64,000 bases of DNA from Acinetobacter sp. 10FS3-1 (GTDB lineage Bacteria; Pseudomonadota; Gammaproteobacteria; Pseudomonadales; Moraxellaceae): NCBI RefSeq assembly GCF_013343215.1, contig NZ_CP039143.1, positions 2,108,001 to 2,172,000 on the forward strand, given 5' to 3'. Below are positions 4,077-58,789 of the stretch, piece after piece. The notes under the pieces are model-generated. The model was not told where the DNA came from, searched no databases, and saw only the letters and a program-made list of their open reading frames with translations. Positions within the stretch are counted from its first letter, which is position 1, and the number at the start of each line of letters is the position of its first letter. The position numbers and the translations under genes are program-made.

Positions 4077-4513
4077 GATTTTTCCTTTCAGAGTGAAACA
4101 CAATAAAATGATGGCATTTAACCATATATCAGCCTTCCTTGCACAAAATTATTTCAATCCAGGAAGTGAAATACAGTCAAAAAATCAATCTAGATTCAAA
4201 GGATAATTTGAATTTTTTCCATTTTTAGTTTTTAAATTCATGATTTCACTGCATAGAAGTTATATAGATAAAATATGGCCGCACTCAACTCTGAACTTAT
4301 TTTAGGATCGGGGGAAGTTTGGGAATAGAAATAGTATAATTTTTCAATTTGTGCTTGTTTAGACACGATCAGGGTAACAATCAAAGTAGACCATTTAAAC
4401 GGGATCGGTTTCAATTACAACAATACTACAACTTTACTGTCGCCTGTCTTGCAAATACTTGATTTATAATTCAGCCTAGACTGATTTAATGTGACTTTTA
4501 CATCACTAACTTG
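4077..4513. other. Intergenic region between divergent serC and the TolC-like gene
   Basis: 437 bp of AT-rich DNA that must hold the promoters of serC (leftward) and the export cluster (rightward). A TTATAAT-like string near 4462 could be a -10 element for the TolC-like gene, but no convincing -35 goes with it. I see no open reading frame, RNA gene or repeat here. Confidence 0.5.
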
Positions 4514-5977
4514 ATGAACATGAAGAAAAATAAACCATATGTCTGCTGGGGTTTTAGTGTGCTTGCATTCATGATGTATGGCAGTTTTAGCTATGCACAA
4601 AACATCAGCTTTCAGGATGCAGAACGACAATTGCTACAGCGCTCTTATTCGGGTCAGGCTTTTCAAAGCCTTGAGCAGGCTTCTAAACTGGAAGCCGAAG
4701 CGATTAAAGGAATTGGATTACCACGTATCGACCTTAATGTCCGGGCCTATGCCTTTCGCAATGAATTAGACATTCCTTTAGGGGCGGTTAAAAATAATCT
4801 TGAGCAGTCTCTGAGCAGTGGTTTAAATAATAAGATTGATGAGTTTAATTTAGACCAGAGTATCGCTGACCCGCTTAAAGAAAGCCTGAAACAACCTATT
4901 CGGGATGGCGTGGGTTTAATTCCAGATTCAACCAATGTAGTGCTTGAAGACCAAGTGGTCCGCCCTAGTGTTTCAGTGATGATGCCACTTTATACCGGTG
5001 GACTGACCCGCAGTGCCAAAGAGGTTGCCACGATTCAAGCTGGACGCAGTGAACTGAGCAATCAGCAACAGCAAGATACACAGCGCTTTGAACTGATTCA
5101 GGCCTATTTTAGTGTACAACTGCAAAAGCAGTTATTAGAGGCAGCGCGTTTTAACTCAAATGCCATGCAACAACATTATCGCAATGCCCTGAAAATGGAA
5201 CAGCAGGGATTTATTAGCAAAGGGCAGCGTATGCAGTTTGAAGTGGCGCGTAATAATGCTGATCGAACCCAGCAAAATACTCAGGCTAATCTGAATGCTG
5301 CACTGTTCCAGTTGAACAACTTATTGCGGGACAATACTATTACCGAGTTGAGCACACCTTTATTTGTCAATCGGGCTGAACCACAAAATGTAAATATCCT
5401 GCTCAGCAGTTTTAGCCAGAATTCACCTTTAATTAAAAAAATGAAACTGGATACCGAACTGGCCAAAACCAATGTCAAAGCCCAGCAGGCAGCTCAAAAG
5501 CCAAATGTCTTTGCCTTTGGCGAATACAGTCTGGACGCACAGCAAAACTGGATTGTTGGGGTTGCAGCACGTTATAACTTGTTTTCCGGCATTGATAAAA
5601 ACAAGAATATTCAAGCTGCCGAACTGAAACGTTATGCTGCCGAACTGATGACAGCACGTACACAGCAGGAAGTTGAAAACCTGATTTATAAATCGTTTAG
5701 TGAAGCAGTCAGTGCCCAGCAAAGCGATGTTTTATTACAACAAAATATGAAAGCAGCTCTGGAAAACTTGCGTATTCAAGAATTGTCTTTTAAGGAAGAT
5801 GTCGGCACTGCAACTCAGGTGATTGATGCACAAAATATGCTGAGCAGCTTAAAGGCAGAGACAGCATTAAATGCTTATAAGTATGTCATCTCCCTCGCCA
5901 CATTATTACAAAGTCATGGCTCTATTGCTGAGTTTCCAGACTATATGCAGCATGCCAATACTCACTATATTCGTTAA
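4514..5977 (+). CDS. TolC-family outer membrane efflux protein
   Basis: About 487 residues. A signal peptide ends near residue 28 (YGSFSYA before QNISF). The rest is the long alpha-helical, Gln/Ala/Asn-rich sequence of TolC-type channels, with the internal repeat typical of the OEP domain (for example TGGLTRSAKEVATIQAG and the later YNLFSGIDKNKN, each in the 'YNLFSGG' type of site). It should form the outer-membrane exit duct of a tripartite exporter. ATG 4514 (or 4520) is preferred over the TTG at 4511. It is the first gene of a tightly spaced four-gene unit: its TAA overlaps the ATG of the HlyD-like gene by one base, so the two are probably translationally coupled. Confidence 0.9.
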   Translation: MNMKKNKPYVCWGFSVLAFMMYGSFSYAQNISFQDAERQLLQRSYSGQAFQSLEQASKLEAEAIKGIGLPRIDLNVRAYAFRNELDIPLGAVKNNLEQSLSSGLNNKIDEFNLDQSIADPLKESLKQPIRDGVGLIPDSTNVVLEDQVVRPSVSVMMPLYTGGLTRSAKEVATIQAGRSELSNQQQQDTQRFELIQAYFSVQLQKQLLEAARFNSNAMQQHYRNALKMEQQGFISKGQRMQFEVARNNADRTQQNTQANLNAALFQLNNLLRDNTITELSTPLFVNRAEPQNVNILLSSFSQNSPLIKKMKLDTELAKTNVKAQQAAQKPNVFAFGEYSLDAQQNWIVGVAARYNLFSGIDKNKNIQAAELKRYAAELMTARTQQEVENLIYKSFSEAVSAQQSDVLLQQNMKAALENLRIQELSFKEDVGTATQVIDAQNMLSSLKAETALNAYKYVISLATLLQSHGSIAEFPDYMQHANTHYIR

Positions 5978-7071
5978 TGGAGCCAAATATGACTGATGAG
6001 CAAAAGCCTGATCCTCCGGTTAATGAACCTGCTTCAAAAGTAGCACACAACAATCAAACTGAAGAAAATCCTGCCGAAGCAAAACAGAAAAAGTCTGGCA
6101 AGAAATATCTGCTGGGCAGCTTGATTCTGGTCATTCTGGTTTTGATTGGATTTGGCCTCTGGAAGACCTATCAACCTAAAGCGCTCGAACTGCAAGGCCG
6201 GGTTGAAGCGGAAACAGTGCAGGTTGCGACCAAAGTTCCAAGCCGGATTGAAAGGATCTATGTACACGAAGGTGATGAAGTAAAGAAAGGTCAGGTACTG
6301 GTTAAGTTACATAGTCCTGAAATTGAAGCGAAAAAACAGCAGGCACTCGCCACTTTGCAGTCTGCCCTAGCCCTCCAATCCACCGCAGAACGCGGTTCAC
6401 AGGACGAAAATATTGCTTCTCTGCATGCCAACTGGCAATCACTGAAAGCGCAAGAACAGCTGGCAAAAACCTCCTATCAGCGGGGGGCAAACCTGTTTAA
6501 AGAAGGAGTGATTTCCCGTCAGCGCCGCGATGAACTGTATGCAGCATCACAGTCGGCCACACAAATGACTGAAGCGGCCTATCAGCAATATATCCGCGCC
6601 AAACGTGGCAGTACACCGCAGCAAAAAAGTTCAGCCGATGCACAGGTGGACATCGCCCGGGCAGCGGTAGCCGAAGCCAATGCCCTTGAGGCAGAAACTG
6701 AATTACTGGCACCGATCGATGCCACGGTATCCAAAACCTATGGCAATGTTTCGGAGCTGGTCGCAACTGCTGTACCTCTGGTCAGCCTGATTTCGGCAGA
6801 ACGCTGGGTCAGTCTGAATATCCGTGAAGATCAATATGCTTCTTTACACGAAAAAAAGCAGCTCGAAGGTTATATCCCGGCCCTTAATAAAACCGCGAAC
6901 TTTAATGTAAAAAGTATCAGTGCTGAAGGTGAGTTTGCCACGATCAAGACTACCCGCCAAACTGGCGGTTATGATGTGCGCAGTTTTAAAGTTCATCTCG
7001 TGCCTGCCGCCAAAATTCCAGAACTGAAAGTCGGCATGAGTGTATTGTTTAAACTGCAAGAGCCGAAATAA
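5977..7071 (+). CDS. HlyD-family membrane fusion (periplasmic adaptor) protein
   Basis: 364 residues: a charged cytoplasmic N-terminus, one membrane anchor at about residues 43-63 (YLLGSLILVILVLIGFG), a biotinyl-lipoyl-like segment (VATKVPSRIERIYVHEGDEVKKGQVLV), a Gln/Ala-rich coiled-coil hairpin (about 110-215), and a beta-barrel C-terminal part. This is the layout of YhiI/EmrA-like adaptors that link an inner-membrane pump to TolC. The ATG at 5977 overlaps the preceding stop (TAATG); an in-frame ATG at 5989 is an alternative. The adjacent ABC-2 permeases are the expected pump partners. Confidence 0.92.
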   Translation: MEPNMTDEQKPDPPVNEPASKVAHNNQTEENPAEAKQKKSGKKYLLGSLILVILVLIGFGLWKTYQPKALELQGRVEAETVQVATKVPSRIERIYVHEGDEVKKGQVLVKLHSPEIEAKKQQALATLQSALALQSTAERGSQDENIASLHANWQSLKAQEQLAKTSYQRGANLFKEGVISRQRRDELYAASQSATQMTEAAYQQYIRAKRGSTPQQKSSADAQVDIARAAVAEANALEAETELLAPIDATVSKTYGNVSELVATAVPLVSLISAERWVSLNIREDQYASLHEKKQLEGYIPALNKTANFNVKSISAEGEFATIKTTRQTGGYDVRSFKVHLVPAAKIPELKVGMSVLFKLQEPK

Positions 7072-8214
7072 ATGGCAACTGGATTCTGGGCCGGCATTCA
7101 GCGTGAATTAGCCTATTTATATAGAGAAAAATGGGATCTGGCACTGGTCTTGCTGGCCCCTGCCTGCATTTTAATTTTATTCGGCAGCATGTTTGCCAAA
7201 GGCAAACCTGATCATTTACCGATTGCTATTATTGACCAAGATCAAAGCAGCCTGAGTACTCAGATTTATGATCATTTATCTCTGAATTCTACTCTGCGAG
7301 TGTATAGCGTTTCTGATCAGAGCGTTGAGGTTGAAAAACTGCTCAACCAGAATAAAATCTGGGGCTACATCCATATTCCTACAGGTGCTGAACAGCGACT
7401 GGTCCAGGCACAAAATGCCGAAATCAGTATTGCCTTTAATCAGAGCTATTTCAGTATCGGCAATACCATTTCTTCAGCCATGTTACTCAGTACACTACAG
7501 GCAATGGCTGAGTTTACCGGAAAACAGTATCTGGGCAATACTCTGCCTGATCTGGATGCACCAACACCGAATATTAAAATTTCTCCACTTTATAACCCGC
7601 AGCTGAATTATGAGTTTTATCTGGAACCGTATATGGTTCCGGCGATTCTGCATTTGCTCTTGTGTTGCTGTGTGGCTTTTTCAGTAGGTCAGGAGCTCAA
7701 GCGGCATACTTTTCATCATTGGATTAATAAACAGAATCTCTGGTCAGCCCTTCTCTCTAAGAATCTGGTCTATGTGGCGATCTTCTGTCTCTGGACCTGG
7801 GCCTGGATGTTGTGGATGGTTGAGTTCCGCGGCTGGTTTATTGCCGGCTCATTCTGGCTGATTGTATTGGCTCAAATCTTATTCTATAGCGCCTATGCCT
7901 TTATCAGTAGCGCGGTCGTACTCGCTACGCAGGACCTGACCAAATCTTTTGGCCTACTCGCGGTCTATGGTGGTTCATCGCTCAGTTTTGCCGGTGTGAC
8001 TTTACCCTTAAATAATGCCCCGCTGTTTACCCAGTTCTGGGCCCATATTATTCCTTATACACCTTATGCCAAATTACAAACCGAGCAATGGGTGATTGGC
8101 AGTCCTCTAGCTATTTCACTGCAACCGATGTTAATACTGATAGTCTATGTACTGCTTTACGCCGGACTGGCCTATATTTTTTTAAAGAAGACCGCTAAAG
8201 GAGTGTCGACATGA
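7072..8214 (+). CDS. ABC-2 type transporter permease (YhhJ/YbhR-like)
   Basis: 380 residues with the ABC2_membrane_3 layout: one N-terminal membrane helix (about 22-42, LALVLLAPACILILFGSMF), a large periplasmic domain starting at the IAIIDQDQSSLS motif, then about five C-terminal membrane helices (from about residue 185). The start codon directly follows the stop of the HlyD-like gene, and the 3' end overlaps the next permease by four bases (ATGA). Relatives normally work with a cytoplasmic ATPase such as RbbA or YbhF, but none is encoded nearby. Substrate unknown. Confidence 0.9.
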   Translation: MATGFWAGIQRELAYLYREKWDLALVLLAPACILILFGSMFAKGKPDHLPIAIIDQDQSSLSTQIYDHLSLNSTLRVYSVSDQSVEVEKLLNQNKIWGYIHIPTGAEQRLVQAQNAEISIAFNQSYFSIGNTISSAMLLSTLQAMAEFTGKQYLGNTLPDLDAPTPNIKISPLYNPQLNYEFYLEPYMVPAILHLLLCCCVAFSVGQELKRHTFHHWINKQNLWSALLSKNLVYVAIFCLWTWAWMLWMVEFRGWFIAGSFWLIVLAQILFYSAYAFISSAVVLATQDLTKSFGLLAVYGGSSLSFAGVTLPLNNAPLFTQFWAHIIPYTPYAKLQTEQWVIGSPLAISLQPMLILIVYVLLYAGLAYIFLKKTAKGVST

Positions 8215-9302
8215 AAGCACTCTGGAGGGCTTACTGCAAAACCTTTAAAGATATTGTCAGCAATAGCAGTATTTTTACCACGCTGATTCTCTCGGTACTA
8301 TTTTACAGCTTTTTCTATCCAACCGCCTACAAAGCTGAACAGGCCAAAGCCTTGCCGATTATTATTGTCGATGAAGAGCAAAGTGCCCTAACCAGCAGCA
8401 TTATCAGTCACGTCAGTCAAAGCCCGAATGTACAGACCATAGCCGTCACCGGGAATTTTGCTGAAGCCAGGCAATGGGTAGAATCTCAAAAAGCTGACGG
8501 GATCTTGTTATTACCGGATAATCTTTCACAATCCATTCGACATGGGGAAAATGGGGGGATCGGGCTATACCTGAGTGCAGCCAATTTCCTGATTACTAAA
8601 CAGATTGGCTTAGGTCTAGTGGCTTCCGTTGAAAATACTCTAAGTGAATATACTGAACGTTTTAGCGAAATTTCACATTTCTCACCTGCCCTGTCTATTC
8701 ACCAGATTCCGCTTTTCAATCCCCTATCCGGCTATGGCAGTTATGTATTTCCAGCTGTTGCACCACTGATTATTCATCAGACAATTTTTTTGGGACTTAG
8801 CATGCTGATTGCCCTGTACCGGGAAAATAAACAGATGCTTAATCTAATCACCTTGAGCGGGATTGGTCTGGCTATTTTGACGATTGGCTGTCTGGGTTGT
8901 TATTACCTGTTTGGCTTTACCTTCTGGTTGTTTGACTATCCACGTGGGGGCAATTTCTGGGGCATGCTACTCGCTGTACCAGTATTTGTGTTCTGTATGA
9001 TTGGCATCACGATCCTGTTCGCCAGTTTTCTAGATATGCCGGAACGTGCCGGACATATAATTGTCTTCACTTCCATTCCATTTTTTATGCTGTCTGGAGT
9101 TGCCTGGCCACACGCTGCAATGCCCGTCTGGATGCAATTCATTGGACAGGCTTTACCTTCAACACAGATCGTTCAAATGTTTATCCAGCTGAATCAGATG
9201 GGCGTACCCACTTACCTGATTCTAGGAAAGCTTGCTTATCTGTTTGTGGTCGGCATGATCTGCATGGGCTTAGGCTATTATCGACTACGCCCACGCAGTT
9301 AA
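8211..9302 (+). CDS. ABC-2 type transporter permease, second of a pair
   Basis: 363 residues with the same architecture as the preceding gene: N-terminal helix (about 20-37), periplasmic domain with the related IIIVDEEQSALTSS motif, and five C-terminal helices. The two proteins are clearly paralogous and probably form a heterodimeric membrane core. The ATGA overlap with the upstream gene indicates translational coupling. It is the last gene of the rightward cluster; the next gene is convergent, 38 bp away, and I see no obvious hairpin terminator between them. No ATP-binding subunit follows. Confidence 0.9.
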   Translation: MKALWRAYCKTFKDIVSNSSIFTTLILSVLFYSFFYPTAYKAEQAKALPIIIVDEEQSALTSSIISHVSQSPNVQTIAVTGNFAEARQWVESQKADGILLLPDNLSQSIRHGENGGIGLYLSAANFLITKQIGLGLVASVENTLSEYTERFSEISHFSPALSIHQIPLFNPLSGYGSYVFPAVAPLIIHQTIFLGLSMLIALYRENKQMLNLITLSGIGLAILTIGCLGCYYLFGFTFWLFDYPRGGNFWGMLLAVPVFVFCMIGITILFASFLDMPERAGHIIVFTSIPFFMLSGVAWPHAAMPVWMQFIGQALPSTQIVQMFIQLNQMGVPTYLILGKLAYLFVVGMICMGLGYYRLRPRS

Positions 9303-9817: not shown

Positions 9818-12793
9818 TTACTCTTTTACTGTAGCGTTATCATCTGCCTGTTCAGCATCTTGCTCACCAGCCACAAGATCCGCAGTTGACTCTGTATTTT
9901 CAGTATCAGCCAATACATCCAATTCTTCATCTTCAACCGCTTCAATGGCTTCTACACCAACCAGTGTTTCATCTTCACCAAGACGGATCAGACGAACCCC
10001 TTGAGCATTACGGCCAGTTTGTGCAACTTCGGATGCACGAGTCCGTACCAATGTTCCGCCATCTGAAATCAGCATCAACTCTTTAGAAGCATCAATCGCA
10101 ACTGCACCTACAAGTTCACCATTACGCTCGGACGTCTTGATTGCAATTACGCCTTTACCGCCGCGTTTCTTGGTCGGGAATTCATCTACTGTGGTACGTT
10201 TACCATAACCATTGGCAGAAGCACACAGCACTTCACCTGTTTCTGGAACGACCACCAGTGATACGATACGGCTAATAAAGCTAGTTTCAGTCGCCTCGTC
10301 ATCATCAGACTCGACATCTGCATCTTCTGCATCTTCGACCTGAGCAGCGCCGATGGTTACACGCATACCGCGTACACCTTTGGCTGAACGCCCCATAGCA
10401 CGAACATCAGTTTCCGCAAAACGGATTGCTTTGCCTTCATTCGAGAACAGCATGATCTGCTGTTCGCCATCGGTAATGGCCACGCCAATCAGGGTATCAT
10501 CGCCATTCAGCTCAATCGCACGCAGACCATTTGAGCGGACATTGGAGAACTGTTCCAGTTCTACACGTTTAATCGTACCGTACTCGGTAGCCATAAACAC
10601 ATAGAAGTTTTTACGCAGGTTTTCTGCCAGCTCTGCAAATTCAGCAACAACTTCATCATCCAGATCAGTCGCAGAAAGCTCAACGCCCAATTCCTTCAGC
10701 TGAACACGCAAGGCATCAGACAGATCATCTCCATCTTTAAGCTCTGCAAATGCTGCTTCCAGACCCGCATAATACTTGGCGATAATGTCATTCTTCTGCA
10801 GCTGTTCCATATTTGCTTTTACAAAGCTACGGAAGCCTGCCAGACGCTCTTTGAATTTCTTCGGGGCTTCCATGACTGGCAGAATCGCAGTAATGGTTTC
10901 ATGCTCTTCCAGTGGTAACAGGTTGACCATTGGACGGCCTTTGGAACCACGTGAGGCTTGCGGCACTTCAAACACACGCAGACGATAAACTTTACCAACA
11001 TTGGTAAAACAAAGCACCGTAGCATGGCTCGAGGTCACAATCAGATGTTGGATATAATCATCTTCTTTCATCGAAGTAGCAGACTTGCCGCGGCCACCAC
11101 GACGTTGTGCGGCATAATCAGACAATGGCTGAGTTTTTGCATAACCTGACTGGGAAACAGTCAATACCATCTGCTCTTCTGGAATCAGATCTTCACGCGA
11201 GAAGTCGATACGAGACTCAACAATATCTGTCTTACGTGCATCGCCATATTGTTGCAGCACCAGCGCAAGCTCTTCTTTAATCACATTCATCAATAAGTTG
11301 AAGTCATTTAAGATAGCAGTATATTCAGCAATTTGAGCCAAGATTTCAGAATATTCAGCTTGAAGTTTATCCTGCTCAAGACCGGTCAAACGGTGTAAAC
11401 GCAATTCCATAATCGCGTTGACTTGAGTCGGAGATAAACGATACACATCACCATCAATACCAAATGGACGGTTTGGATCTTCGCCTTCAATTTCATCAGG
11501 ACGTACAGAAACAGCGCCCGCCTTTTCAAGCAATGCTGCCACACCACCTGCTGCCCACTCACCCGCTTGCAAACGCTCACGCGCTTCAGCAGGGTTAGCA
11601 GAAGTTTTGATGGTTTCAATGATGGCATCAATATTTGCCAGCGCAACTGTCAGGCCTTCTAATATATGACCACGTTCACGTGCCTTGCGTAATTCGAACA
11701 TGGTCCGGCGGGTCACAACTTCCTGACGGTGACGGATAAACGCTGCAACGATATCTTTCAGGTTCATCAATTTTGGCTGGCCATTGTCCAGGCAAACCAT
11801 ATTAATGCTGAACGAGTTTTCCAGCTGGGTATTCAGAAACAGGTTGTTGACGATGACTTCAGCATTTTCACCACGCTTCAGGTCAATCGCAATACGCATC
11901 CCATCTTTATCTGATTCGTCACGAAGTTCTGAAATTCCTTCGAGTTTTTTCTCTTTAACCAGCTCGGCAATACGCTCAATGGTTTTAGCTTTATTGACCT
12001 GATAAGGAATTTCAGTAAATACAATAGTGGTACGGCCAGACTTCTGATCTTCCTCAAAATGGTATTTACCACGGATATGCAAACGGCCTTTACCGGTGCG
12101 GTAAGCATCAACAATCCCTGATTTACCATAGATAATACCGCCTGTAGGGAAATCTGGACCGGAAATATGCTCCATTAATCCTTCAATGCTGATATTCGGG
12201 TTATCTGCATAGGCCAGACACGCATTCACCACTTCTGTCATGTTGTGCGGCGCCATATTGGTCGCCATACCAACTGCAATCCCCGCAGCACCATTGACCA
12301 GCAGGTTTGGAATACGGGTCGGCATCACTTGTGGAATACGTTCTGAGCCGTCGTAGTTGTCTTCCCAGTCAACGGTATCTTTTTCAAGATCCGCCAGTAA
12401 TTCATGGGTCAGCTTACGCATGCGGACTTCGGTATAACGCATCGCAGCAGCACTATCGCCATCGATCGAACCAAAGTTCCCTTGTCCATCTACCAGTTGG
12501 TAACGTAAACTGAAGTCCTGTGCCATGCGTACAATTGTTTCATAAACGGCTAAATCCCCATGCGGGTGATATTTACCGATGACGTCACCTACAACACGGG
12601 CAGACTTTTTGTAAGCTTTGTTGTAGTCATTGCCCAATTCGTGCATTGCGAAAAGCACACGACGATGAACAGGTTTTAGACCATCTCGTACATCCGGCAA
12701 GGCACGTGAAACGATCACGCTCATTGCATAGTCTAAATACGAGTGCTTGAGTTCATCCTCAATGGCAATCGGTCTAATTTCCGATACGCTCAT
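9818..12793 (-). CDS. gyrA: DNA gyrase subunit A, with Leu81 and an enlarged C-terminal domain
   Basis: 991 residues. GyrA makes the double-strand break and passage in ATP-driven negative supercoiling, as A2B2 with GyrB. Visible landmarks are the winged-helix/QRDR region GKYHPHGD (73-80), the catalytic Tyr120 in [11 protein letters not shown], and the GyrA box QRRGGRG that starts the DNA-wrapping C-terminal domain. Residue 81, Ser in susceptible Acinetobacter and equivalent to E. coli Ser83, is Leu (TTA, 12551-12553). The protein is longer than the usual 870-930 residues because of an acidic, helix-rich insertion at about residues 641-728, between the motif ITAILPV and [11 protein letters not shown]. 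Its start is supported by AAGGAG just upstream. It is monocistronic, with its own terminator. Confidence 0.97.
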
Positions 12794-13990: not shown

Positions 13991-14006
13991 AAACCTGATT
14001 CAGGAA

Positions 14007-14939
14007 TTAGATTTTAGAAACCAATTCAGGAATAACAGTATTCAAGTCACCTACTAACCAGTAATCAGCAACTGCATTAATTGGTGCTTCTTCATCTTTG
14101 TTGATCGCAACGATCACTTTAGATTCTTTCATACCTGCCAAATGCTGAATCGCACCAGAGATACCGACAGCGATATAAAGTTCAGGTGCAACAATTTTAC
14201 CTGTTTGACCCACTTGCATGTCATTAGGAACAAAACCAGCATCTACCGCAGCACGTGAAGCACCTTGAGCAGCACCCAGCTTGTCAGCCAGTGGATCAAG
14301 AATCGCGTGATAGTTTTCACCCGAACCCACACCACGACCACCTGAAACCACAATACGCGCAGCTGTCAGTTCTGGACGCTCAGATTTCACAATTTCTTCT
14401 GATACAAACTTAGAAATACCTGCATCACCTTGGGACGCAGCAGCTTCAACCGCAGCTGAACCACCTTCTGCTGCCACAGCATCAAATGCAGTACCACGAA
14501 CCGTGCCCAGTACGATGTCTTCGCCTGATTCTACAGTTGCAATCGCGTTACCTGCATAGATTGGGCGCTTGAAGGTTTTAGGACCGTCAACCGCAATGAT
14601 GTCAGTGATCATGCTGACATCTAATAAAGCAGCTGCGCGTGGCAGAATATTTTTACCAGTTGTCGTAGAAGCAGCCAGAATATGGCTATAGCCTTTGCCT
14701 AGTTCTGCAACCAGTTTCGCTACGTTTTCAGCCAGCTGGTTTGCATAAGCAGCGTCATCAGCAAGTAATACTTTACTTACACCAGCCACTTTCGCAGCCT
14801 GATCAGCAACTGCCTGCGCGCCAGAACCCGCTACCAATACAGTGATATCACCACCGATTTTTTGCGCCGCAGCAACAACGTTTAAAGTAGCAGCGTTTAA
14901 TGCTTTGTTGTCGTGCTCAGCGATAACTAAAATACTCAT
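14007..14939 (-). CDS. etfA: Electron transfer flavoprotein alpha subunit
   Basis: 310 residues. EtfA with EtfB binds FAD and AMP, and carries electrons from acyl-CoA dehydrogenases to ETF-ubiquinone oxidoreductase. The C-terminal FAD domain is clear: VVSGGRGVGSGENY, then VGQTGKIVAPELYIAVGISGAIQHLAGM, the signature of the family, and INKDEEAPI. It lies 18 bp downstream of etfB in a two-gene operon ending at the hairpin near 13,960. The glutaryl-CoA dehydrogenase encoded near 45 kb is a natural electron donor. Confidence 0.96.
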   Translation of the reverse strand: MSILVIAEHDNKALNAATLNVVAAAQKIGGDITVLVAGSGAQAVADQAAKVAGVSKVLLADDAAYANQLAENVAKLVAELGKGYSHILAASTTTGKNILPRAAALLDVSMITDIIAVDGPKTFKRPIYAGNAIATVESGEDIVLGTVRGTAFDAVAAEGGSAAVEAAASQGDAGISKFVSEEIVKSERPELTAARIVVSGGRGVGSGENYHAILDPLADKLGAAQGASRAAVDAGFVPNDMQVGQTGKIVAPELYIAVGISGAIQHLAGMKESKVIVAINKDEEAPINAVADYWLVGDLNTVIPELVSKI

Positions 14940-14957
14940 GATTTTTATCCTTCTGTA

Positions 14958-15710
14958 TTAGATCACTTTCGCTTCGTTTTTCAATTTTTCTACAAGCTCA
15001 TCTACAGACTTCACTTGTACGCCAGCTTTACGCTCTGCAGGAGACTCAACTTTCACTGTTTTCAGTTTAGTTGTAGCGGTTACACCGAAATCTGCAGGAG
15101 ACTTGGTATCCAGCGGCTTTTTACGCGCTTTCATAATATTTGGCAGAGCTGCATAACGTGGCTCGTTCAAACGCAAGTCAGTGGTAATGATCGCTGGAAG
15201 TGATAATTCAACAGTTTGTAGACCACCGTCGATTTCACGCGTCACTTGTACTTTATCGCCTTCAACTTTAACTTCCGAAGCAAATGTACCTTGACCTGCA
15301 CCCATAAGCGCACCCAGCATCTGACCAACCTGGTTAGAGTCGTCATCAATTGCCTGTTTACCCAGAAGGATCAGTTGCGGTTGTTCAGCGTCAACCACAC
15401 CTTTTAGAATTTTGGCAATTTCCAGTGCACCCAGCTGACTATCATCAGCTTCCACCAGAATACCGCGGTCAGCGCCAAGCGCCATCGCAGAACGGATTTG
15501 TTCTTGCGCTTCTTTAGGACCAATAGACACAACAACGATTTCTGAAACAGTTCCTTTTTCTTTTAAACGAACCGCTTCTTCCACTGCGATTTCACAGAAT
15601 GGGTTAATTGACATTTTAACGTTTGTTAAGTCAACACCACTGTTGTCCGGCTTAACGCGAACCTTAACGTTGGCATCAACCACACGTTTTACAGCAACAA
15701 GAGCCTTCAT
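14958..15710 (-). CDS. etfB: Electron transfer flavoprotein beta subunit
   Basis: 250 residues, the normal length. It begins [22 protein letters not shown] and carries the family motif [16 protein letters not shown], with the adenine-nucleotide loop around [21 protein letters not shown] (AMP binding) and the recognition-loop region [20 protein letters not shown]. An AGGA site precedes the ATG. First gene of etfBA. Confidence 0.96.
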
Positions 15711-55693: not shown

Positions 55694-58600
55694 CTAGGCG
55701 GGTGAGTGTTTACGAAACAGGCTGCGGATCAGTACATACATAAATGGGGTAAAGATCAGGACCAGTACCGTGCCGAAGATCACGCCTCCCAGCACACTGA
55801 CTCCAATTTCCTGACGGCTGACCGCACCAGCACCGAAGGCAAAAACCAATGGCATAATCCCGGCACCAAATGCTAGCGAGGTCATCAGAATCGGACGTAA
55901 ACGCAGGGAGGCTCCTTCTAGGGCAGCCTCGATCACCGTTTTTCCTTTATCCTGAGCCAAAGAAGCAAACTCTACAATCAGGATGGCATTTTTACAGGAC
56001 AGGCCAATCGTCGTCAGTAATGCAATCTGGAAATAGATATCATTTGGAAAACCGGCCAGAGAGCTGAAAATAATATTCCCCCCAATCCCCAAAGGAATGG
56101 CTGACATCACCGCGGTTGGAATACTCCAGCTTTCATATAAAGCAGCCAGACACAGGAAAATAAAGCCAACGGAGACCAGATAAAGCCAGATCGCCTGGTT
56201 ATTGGACTGTTTTTCTTCAAAAGATAAACCACTCCAGACCACATCCACACCCTCTTGCTGACCGACCAGATGCTCTACATCCTGCATGGCTTGACCAGAA
56301 CTGGCACCTTTGCTGATATCTGCTTCCATTTGCAGTGCAGTATAGCCCATAAAACGGTTGACGACCTCAGGGCCACCACTCCAGCCGACCTTAGAAAAAT
56401 TACTGAATGGAATCATCTGGTTCTGATCATTACGTACATGCCATTGTGCCAGATCTTCGGGTTTGGAACGAAACTCTGCATCGCCCTGCATAATCACCCG
56501 TTTAATCCGGCCACGATCAATAAAGTCATTAATATAGTTGCCGCCCCAGGCCGCTGAAAGCGTGCTGTTGATTGCTGACTGGCTTAAACCATTGGCCATG
56601 GCCTGTTTCTGGTCAATATTGACTTTAAGTTCGGCTTTTTCAGGATTGGAACGCTTATCCAGATTTTCAAAGCTACTATATTGAGCTGCACTAGCCTGCA
56701 TATTCTGGAACTGCTCTTCCAGATACTGACGGCCATTGCCATTAATATCACGAATCCAGAAATCCAGGCCGTCGGTTTGTCCCAGACCATTCACCGATGC
56801 GGGCATACTAATATTGATCTGAGCATTGGGATTATCACGGAAATGTGCCATGGCACGTTCACGAATCGCCTGCGCGGTATTTTCTCCCCCTGAACGATCA
56901 TCCCAATGCTTCAAGGCTACAAAACCGGTCGCCAGGTTCTGACCGGTACCTGAGAAGTTACGACCATAACGTATCATGACCAGATTAATATTGGCTTTTT
57001 CCTGTTCCAGAAAATATTGACGTACCTGCTCACCCACTTGAATAGTATTTTTCATAGGGGCACCTTCCTGCAGGCGAATTTGCAGGCTCAGAATTCCCTG
57101 ATCTTCACTGGGCAAAAAGCTAGTCGGTAAAGCGCGGTAAAATAGAGCAAAAATGCCAATCAACCCGATAAAGAGCACTAGACAGATCGCTTTATGTTGC
57201 AAGGTCATGGTGGAAAGATGCACATAACGATCTTTTAAATTGTCGAGTTTCTGGTTAAAGCAGCTGGCCCATCTTACAGGTTGAGGATTCGTCTTGAGTA
57301 TAAGTGCGCAGAGTGCCGGGGTCAGGATGAGCGCCACCATCAGGGAAAGCGACATGGCAGCAACCAACGTAATGGAAAACTGACGATAGATCACGCCGGT
57401 TGATCCCCCAAAGAATGCCATCGGAATAAACACCGCAGTCAACACCAGAGTAATCCCGACTAGGGCACCACTGATTTCCTGCATGGATGCCAAAGCTGCC
57501 TCTTTGGCAGACAGCTGCTGCTCGTGCATCAGACGCTCTACATTTTCCACCACGACAATCGCATCATCGACCAGTAGACCAATCGCCAGCACCATCGCAA
57601 ACAGTGTCAGAGTATTGATGCTCAACCCCAGCGCATATAACACCGCCATCGTTCCCAAAATGACCACAGGCACAGTAATTGCAGGAATCAGGGTTGCCCG
57701 CCAGTTCTGCAGGAAAATAAACATGACTATAATCACCAGGATGACTGCTTCGATCAGGGTTTTTACAACCTCCTTAATCGACTCCTGCACAAATGGCGTA
57801 TTATCCCGGGGATAGGCGATTTTATAGCCTGGGGGTAATTGTGTGGCAATACGGGAAATTTCGGCCTTGATCAGTTGTGAGGTAGCAATGGCATTCGCCC
57901 CGGAGGCTAGTGAAATTCCCAGACCAGCCGATGGAAAACCATTATTAGTGCTATAAGACTGATAATTTTCAGCTCCCAGTTCTACCCTCGCCACATCTTT
58001 TAAATAGATAAAACTGCCATCTTGAGCAGATTTCACAATAATATTTTCAAACTCTTCGACCGTTTTTAAACGGCTGCCAGAGGTGACTTTGGCATTCAGA
58101 TACTGGTCTTCGACCGTAGGCAGGTCTCCTATCGCCCCGGCAGCCACTTGGGTATTCTGGGCTTCGACTGCTGCCCGTATATCGCTCGGCATCAGGCTAT
58201 ATTGTTTGAGTTTGGCCGGATGTAGCCAAATCCGCATGGCGAACTGTGAACCAAAAACATCCACCTCGCCCACCCCATCAATCCGGGCAATATCCTGCTC
58301 CAGATGAGTCATTAAATAGTCCGAAAGTTCGATATTGCTGCTGCGCCCACTTTCGTCATACAGACTGATGACCATATGGGTATCTCCCAGAGACTTAAAG
58401 ACATTAACTCCCTGACGCTGTACCTCTTCCGGCAAGCGGTTTAAGACCCCGTTAATGGCATTTTGCACCTGCACCTGTGCGGTATCCGGATCTGTCCCAT
58501 TTTCAAAACTGATGCTGATCCGGCTTCGTCCCGAAGAATCACTACTGGAACTAAAGTACAGCAAATGATCAATCCCTTTGATTTGCTGTTCTAAGACTTG

Positions 58601-58789
58601 GGTGACACTCTCCTCCACCGTTTCAGCAGAGGCACCGGTATAGGTAGCCGCCACAGTGATCCGAGGTGGTGCAATGTCAGGATATCGTTCCACAGCTAAA
58701 TTCATCACCGCAAAAAGCCCGATCGCCATCACGACTATGGCCAATACACCGGCAAAAATAGGACGATGAATAAAAAATTTAGACAACAT
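55694..58789 (-). CDS. RND (HAE1) multidrug efflux transporter permease
   Basis: 1031 residues, typical of AcrB/AdeB/MexD-type pumps. Twelve membrane helices: helix 1 in IFAGVLAIVVMAIGLFAV, two large periplasmic loops, the proton-relay helix LAIGLLVDDAIVVVENVER (two adjacent Asp), GGSTGVIYRQFSITLVAAM, and the C-terminal SMTSLAFGAGIMPLVFAFGAGAVSRQEIG. It should export drugs or toxic organics through a tripartite complex. No adaptor (MFP) or outer-membrane gene lies next to it, unlike adeABC or adeIJK. It resembles solitary RND permeases of Acinetobacter such as AbeD, though I cannot assign it. Partners may be shared from elsewhere. Confidence 0.92.
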   Translation of the reverse strand: MLSKFFIHRPIFAGVLAIVVMAIGLFAVMNLAVERYPDIAPPRITVAATYTGASAETVEESVTQVLEQQIKGIDHLLYFSSSSDSSGRSRISISFENGTDPDTAQVQVQNAINGVLNRLPEEVQRQGVNVFKSLGDTHMVISLYDESGRSSNIELSDYLMTHLEQDIARIDGVGEVDVFGSQFAMRIWLHPAKLKQYSLMPSDIRAAVEAQNTQVAAGAIGDLPTVEDQYLNAKVTSGSRLKTVEEFENIIVKSAQDGSFIYLKDVARVELGAENYQSYSTNNGFPSAGLGISLASGANAIATSQLIKAEISRIATQLPPGYKIAYPRDNTPFVQESIKEVVKTLIEAVILVIIVMFIFLQNWRATLIPAITVPVVILGTMAVLYALGLSINTLTLFAMVLAIGLLVDDAIVVVENVERLMHEQQLSAKEAALASMQEISGALVGITLVLTAVFIPMAFFGGSTGVIYRQFSITLVAAMSLSLMVALILTPALCALILKTNPQPVRWASCFNQKLDNLKDRYVHLSTMTLQHKAICLVLFIGLIGIFALFYRALPTSFLPSEDQGILSLQIRLQEGAPMKNTIQVGEQVRQYFLEQEKANINLVMIRYGRNFSGTGQNLATGFVALKHWDDRSGGENTAQAIRERAMAHFRDNPNAQINISMPASVNGLGQTDGLDFWIRDINGNGRQYLEEQFQNMQASAAQYSSFENLDKRSNPEKAELKVNIDQKQAMANGLSQSAINSTLSAAWGGNYINDFIDRGRIKRVIMQGDAEFRSKPEDLAQWHVRNDQNQMIPFSNFSKVGWSGGPEVVNRFMGYTALQMEADISKGASSGQAMQDVEHLVGQQEGVDVVWSGLSFEEKQSNNQAIWLYLVSVGFIFLCLAALYESWSIPTAVMSAIPLGIGGNIIFSSLAGFPNDIYFQIALLTTIGLSCKNAILIVEFASLAQDKGKTVIEAALEGASLRLRPILMTSLAFGAGIMPLVFAFGAGAVSRQEIGVSVLGGVIFGTVLVLIFTPFMYVLIRSLFRKHSPA

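Follow-up and report, generated by a model that had tools for sequence, protein, structure and literature searches.

Leu81 of GyrA in Acinetobacter sp. 10FS3-1 is very probably an acquired fluoroquinolone-resistance substitution that acts together with ParC Leu84

Results

The gyrA locus and codon 81

The window considered here (the whole stretch of DNA that was analysed, 64,000 nucleotides) carries gyrA on its minus strand, with the following features:

9818-12793, minus strand: gyrA, DNA gyrase subunit A, open reading frame of 991 aa (TIGR01063; PF00521)
12551-12553, minus strand: gyrA codon 81, TTA, Leu, counted from the ATG at 12793
12539-12541, minus strand: gyrA codon 85, Glu (E. coli position 87), from the sequence and the genus tally
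12482-12601, minus strand: quinolone-resistance-determining region of gyrA, residues 65-104 (E. coli 67-106), placed by an offset of two

The encoded protein scores above the NCBIfam cut-offs of both GyrA models that we consulted (TIGR01063, 1147.1 bits versus 877; NF004043, 1158.3 bits versus 902), and gyrA is one of the two genes returned by a PF00521 profile search of the genome, parC being the other. Its match to the solved structure 6rks_A, which we take to be E. coli GyrA, starts at residue 4 of our protein and residue 6 of the chain; because of this offset of two, residue 81 is taken as the equivalent of E. coli residue 83, and residue 85 as that of residue 87. The E. coli quinolone-resistance-determining region was presumed to span residues 67-106. 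Counting on the minus strand from the start codon confirms the Leu that the preliminary description had placed at residue 81. A megablast search of PLSDB for plasmid copies of gyrA gave no match.

The window also holds two stretches with transport genes. Adjoining gyrA, at 4511-9302 on the plus strand, TolC-like and HlyD-like genes (below curated cut-offs) are followed by open reading frames of 380 and 363 aa, an arrangement that by eye resembles an ABC-2 type exporter. At 55694-58789 on the minus strand, a multidrug efflux permease of the RND type (1335.4 bits against NF000282, cut-off 1250) sits between the mgtE and isocitrate lyase genes and not beside an adaptor gene.

Residue 81 across Acinetobacter

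Ser is the norm at GyrA residue 81 in the genus, and Leu is rare. We read the residue in three sets, which share species and are not independent of one another: 80 loci from named records (Ser 69, Phe 5, Tyr 3, Thr 2, Leu 1), the best 120 GyrA proteins (Ser 74, Phe 27, Tyr 15, Leu 4, our own protein being one of the four), and 94 Acinetobacter genomes, one per species and our own included (Ser 71, Leu 3). The earlier assumption that Ser is usual here is thus upheld in each set. The four Leu-bearing proteins are P0001, P0002, P0076 and P0079, and the three Leu-bearing genomes are G000, G076 and G105. Of the two Thr81 loci among the 80, one comes from Alkanindiges and one from a Moraxellaceae metagenome-assembled genome (MAG). 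A contig filed under an uncultured Methylophaga MAG (L009) carries an Acinetobacter-like gyrA with Leu81 (TTA); its place under Methylophaga is probably a binning error.

The neighbouring acidic residue is conserved: residue 85 is Glu in 89 of the 94 genomes, our own included, and Asp in the other five, which look, by sequence, like a separate group. Three of these five combine Asp85 with Thr81 and ParC Ser84 (G049, G052 and G088; loci L258, L268 and L266), and two combine it with Ile81 (G044, locus L267, with ParC Ser84; G089, locus L265, with ParC Ile84). The Thr81 plus Asp85 forms look like natural variants.

In all, 23 of the 94 species representatives, our own among them, are non-Ser at residue 81. 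Because of this count (in which three Thr forms are natural-looking), a reference genome may itself come from a resistant isolate, and a single species-representative genome is a poor "wild type" standard at this codon. Finding Leu in a type or reference strain would therefore be a weak refutation of acquired resistance.

ParC and its association with GyrA

In the preliminary description parC was named as the second gene to read, with Ser expected at about residue 80. It lies elsewhere on the chromosome:

L002:691-2910 (G000:C1:2726678-2728894), minus strand: parC (PF00521; TIGR01062)

Its product scores 1025.8 bits against TIGR01062 (cut-off 628.9), and its motif reads HPHGD-L-ACYE, with Leu84 (codon TTA), the usual second-step substitution, and with Glu88 intact. 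At the matching position the best 120 ParC proteins have Ser in 82, Leu in 20, Tyr in 14 and Phe in 4. GyrA S81L with ParC S84L is the standard pair. A PF00204 profile search likewise returned two genes in the genome (GyrB/ParE type), and one motif region of each was read.

The effects of the two substitutions have been measured in A. baumannii. In one study of isogenic strains, the ciprofloxacin MIC is 0.25 ug/ml for the wild type, 2-4 for S81L, 0.25 for S84L and 32 for the two together (PMC6561030). Evolved lines gained S81L first, with an approximately 8-fold increase, and then ParC S84L or E88K, reaching 128-fold (PMC8262867). Among isolates from turkeys, one report gives S81L together with ParC S84L or S84F in 10 of 10 sequenced ciprofloxacin-resistant strains, and an isolate with S81L only for which the MIC was raised for nalidixic acid and not for ciprofloxacin (PMC10052703).

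Across the genus the two residues change in a one-sided way. GyrA-81 and ParC-84 were read in 94 genomes (25 Acinetobacter genomes plus 69 further ones drawn, none dropped; the parC places for 29 of the 69 were obtained in a separate search). Both residues are Ser in 71 genomes, both are changed in 15, only GyrA is changed in 8 (G042, G043, G044, G049, G051, G052, G070 and G088), and only ParC is changed in none (Fisher p = 5e-12, or 2e-11 without our own genome, values that are uncorrected for shared ancestry). Put differently, all 15 of the 15 ParC changes fall in genomes with a changed GyrA, as compared with 0 of the 71 genomes with GyrA Ser, and each of the three Leu81 genomes (3/3, our own included) has ParC Leu84. 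Thirteen genomes of other genera were left out of this tally; they yielded 5 gyrA and 5 parC loci, all with Ser. Because ParC S84L alone does nothing to the MIC, this one-way dependence of ParC on GyrA is what stepwise drug selection predicts. Together with the evolved lines (PMC8262867), it bears out the earlier description of Ser81Leu as a first-step mutation. A non-Ser residue at GyrA-81 is by itself no proof of selection, since 8 of the 23 GyrA-changed genomes keep ParC Ser and three of those eight are the natural-looking Thr81 plus Asp85 forms.

The ancestral codon and the closest relatives

The preliminary description had also pointed out that TTA is one transition away from TCA. This holds for the codon itself, and TCA is used in 16 of the 94 genomes, but at codon 81 TCT, two changes from TTA, stands in the four nearest genomes with Ser and also in A. 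variabilis NIPH 2171. Because the nearest Ser-bearing relatives use TCT, we can only infer the ancestral codon of this lineage. Among A. variabilis, A. indicus, A. towneri and other relatives the same position also varies, but there it is mostly Phe or Tyr, one-base changes of TCT, whereas our genome has Leu.

In a DNA search from which records close to this genome may be missing, A. variabilis gave the highest-scoring gyrA with a name, at 84.9% identity, and the adjoining stretch of the window at 14000-15710 matched several species at approximately 90%. Among the relatives compared, none that clearly belongs to this species has GyrA Ser81, and the best 120 ParC proteins listed include no same-species relative (none above 94% identity). 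The sole near-identical GyrA that we found, P0002, differs at two residues (521 and 674), represents a cluster of 16 sequences, comes from a different contig of 104617 bases, and has Leu81.

These observations bear on whether Leu81, together with ParC Leu84, could be a fixed natural state of the species, which would then be intrinsically less susceptible and would owe neither residue to the drug. That both GyrA variants of the species or its nearest kin (P0001 and P0002) carry Leu is what such a state would produce, natural-looking non-Ser forms do occur in the genus (G049, G052 and G088), and the relatives' TCT is not one step from TTA. Yet the P0002 cluster may consist of related resistant isolates, Leu is found in only 3 of the 94 genomes, our own included, and each time with ParC Leu84, and the genome has resistance genes on contigs outside the chromosome (see below); we consider a natural fixed state very unlikely. 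P0002 also speaks to the quality of the sequence at codon 81: a sequencing or assembly error, for which we found no support, would have to be reconciled with Leu in a protein that differs at two other residues and lies on another contig, and with a matching substitution in a separate gene, parC, so that the chance of such an error is negligible.

Point mutation or import

Relative to A. variabilis NIPH 2171, identity in gyrA breaks near the codon of interest. The first 216 nt (window 12578-12793, minus strand) are 98.6% identical, as opposed to 87.5% for nt 217-1260, and differences become frequent from approximately nt 210-231, just ahead of codon 81 (nt 241-243). Such a break, and a TTA more than one change removed from the TCT of the relatives, could mean that recombination with another resistant Acinetobacter, and not point mutation, brought in the part of gyrA that encodes Leu81. 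The near-identical tract, however, does not contain codon 81; no donor was found for nt 226-1200 among 109 other gyrA sequences (the best match in 150-nt windows being 92.7%); and of the 366 species pairs that have diverged to a similar degree, 6 (our own pair included) show 5' identity this high or higher. The start of the gene is, moreover, conserved genus-wide, with a synonymous diversity of 0.30 in the first 20 codons (window 12734-12793, minus strand) versus 0.49-0.80 in 29 later 20-codon stretches (103 sequences). We therefore regard import as very unlikely, and as less likely than point mutation for the origin of S81L; it would in any case be a route to acquired resistance and not its opposite, so that the probabilities given to the two overlap.

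At most, the comparison hints weakly at recombination, and the 5' tract concerned lacks codon 81. A mosaic gyrA, which either traded its first 200-odd bases with A. variabilis or took the remainder, with Leu81 in it, from an Acinetobacter that has not been sampled, is in our estimate very unlikely. If it were real, target-site fluoroquinolone resistance could spread between non-baumannii Acinetobacter species through homologous recombination in gyrA.

Other resistance genes in the assembly

The assembly consists of a chromosome contig of approximately 2.97 Mb and twelve more contigs of 395, 75, 74, 55 and 5.9-16 kb. Family searches of the genome placed 2 of 6 APH and 1 of 3 Pterin_bind matches on contig C4 and 1 of 5 Transpeptidase matches on contig C5, and a scan of 10 open reading frames from these two contigs gave five above the NCBIfam cut-offs for resistance models, all of families known to be mobile:

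C4, L180:4019-5658, L182:333-1148 and L182:4524-6251 (minus strand): APH(3'')-Ib, APH(6)-I, Sul2 and Tet(X), above NCBIfam cut-offs
C5, L184:5258-6100, minus strand: OXA-58-family beta-lactamase, above the NCBIfam cut-off

The start codon of APH(3'')-Ib is the one that we picked, and as a scan of 10 frames the list is incomplete for the genome (C2 and C3 were covered by their first 20 kb). Plasmid records were compared with C2, C3 and C5, each by its first 20 kb; for the 395-kb contig, 94% of those 20 kb is covered at 100% identity by the A. indicus plasmid pB18-1, from pigeon stool. C4 is presumably a plasmid. These genes suggest, circumstantially, a history of antibiotic exposure, and an acquired change in gyrA is therefore likely. 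Our literature search found nothing that treats Tet X3, gyrA and livestock together.

In the frame at L182:4524-6251 (minus strand, 575 aa), residues 4-189 match an integrase model with a score under the cut-off, and residues 198-575 span the Tet(X) model in full. The first 20 kb of C5 match plasmids annotated with BREX-1 genes. PF00805 matched a single gene of the genome, C5:3984-4631, which reached 19.7 on NF033086 (cut-off 240), and we rejected it as Qnr; this pentapeptide-repeat protein (L146:3984-4631, plus strand, 215 aa) is matched best by the model for HalA, of the Hailong anti-phage system, with 44.7 bits and a cut-off of 250.

Discussion

Fluoroquinolones bind the cleaved complexes of gyrase with DNA and of topoisomerase IV with DNA via a water-metal-ion bridge, which is held by a Ser and by an acidic residue four positions on. 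When Leu replaces that Ser, the bridge is weakened but both enzymes still work. The first step is GyrA S81L; ParC S84L then removes the second target, giving rise to high-level resistance.

The substitutions of E. coli at GyrA S83L and ParC S80 have the same resistance role; the GyrA positions are equivalent given the offset of two, and the numbering differs. E. coli often gains a second gyrA change at position 87, whereas the counterpart here, residue 85, is Glu. The likeness is closest to A. baumannii, a different species by gyrA, in which the same two residues change, both to Leu (our genome has TTA in both genes), and in the same one-way order, GyrA and then ParC, according to published reports (PMC8262867, PMC6561030).

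We conclude with high confidence that GyrA Leu81 is the acquired fluoroquinolone-resistance substitution S81L, acting with ParC S84L. The quinolone selection that the preliminary description had read from Leu81 is supported by Ser as the genus norm, by ParC Leu84, by the one-way association and by the resistance genes on other contigs, and S81L would accordingly have arisen under drug selection. The isolate is presumably resistant in phenotype, and very probably highly resistant to fluoroquinolones through its GyrA and ParC changes.

The mechanism, GyrA S81L with ParC S84L, is already known and ordinary. What the genome adds is a species outside those usually watched that probably has high-level fluoroquinolone resistance, along with gene families whose names suggest activity against sulfonamides, streptomycin, carbapenems and tetracyclines. 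A small general point for the genus is that, in the 94 genomes, ParC-84 was seen changed only alongside a change at GyrA-81, as expected if ParC S84L is useless alone.
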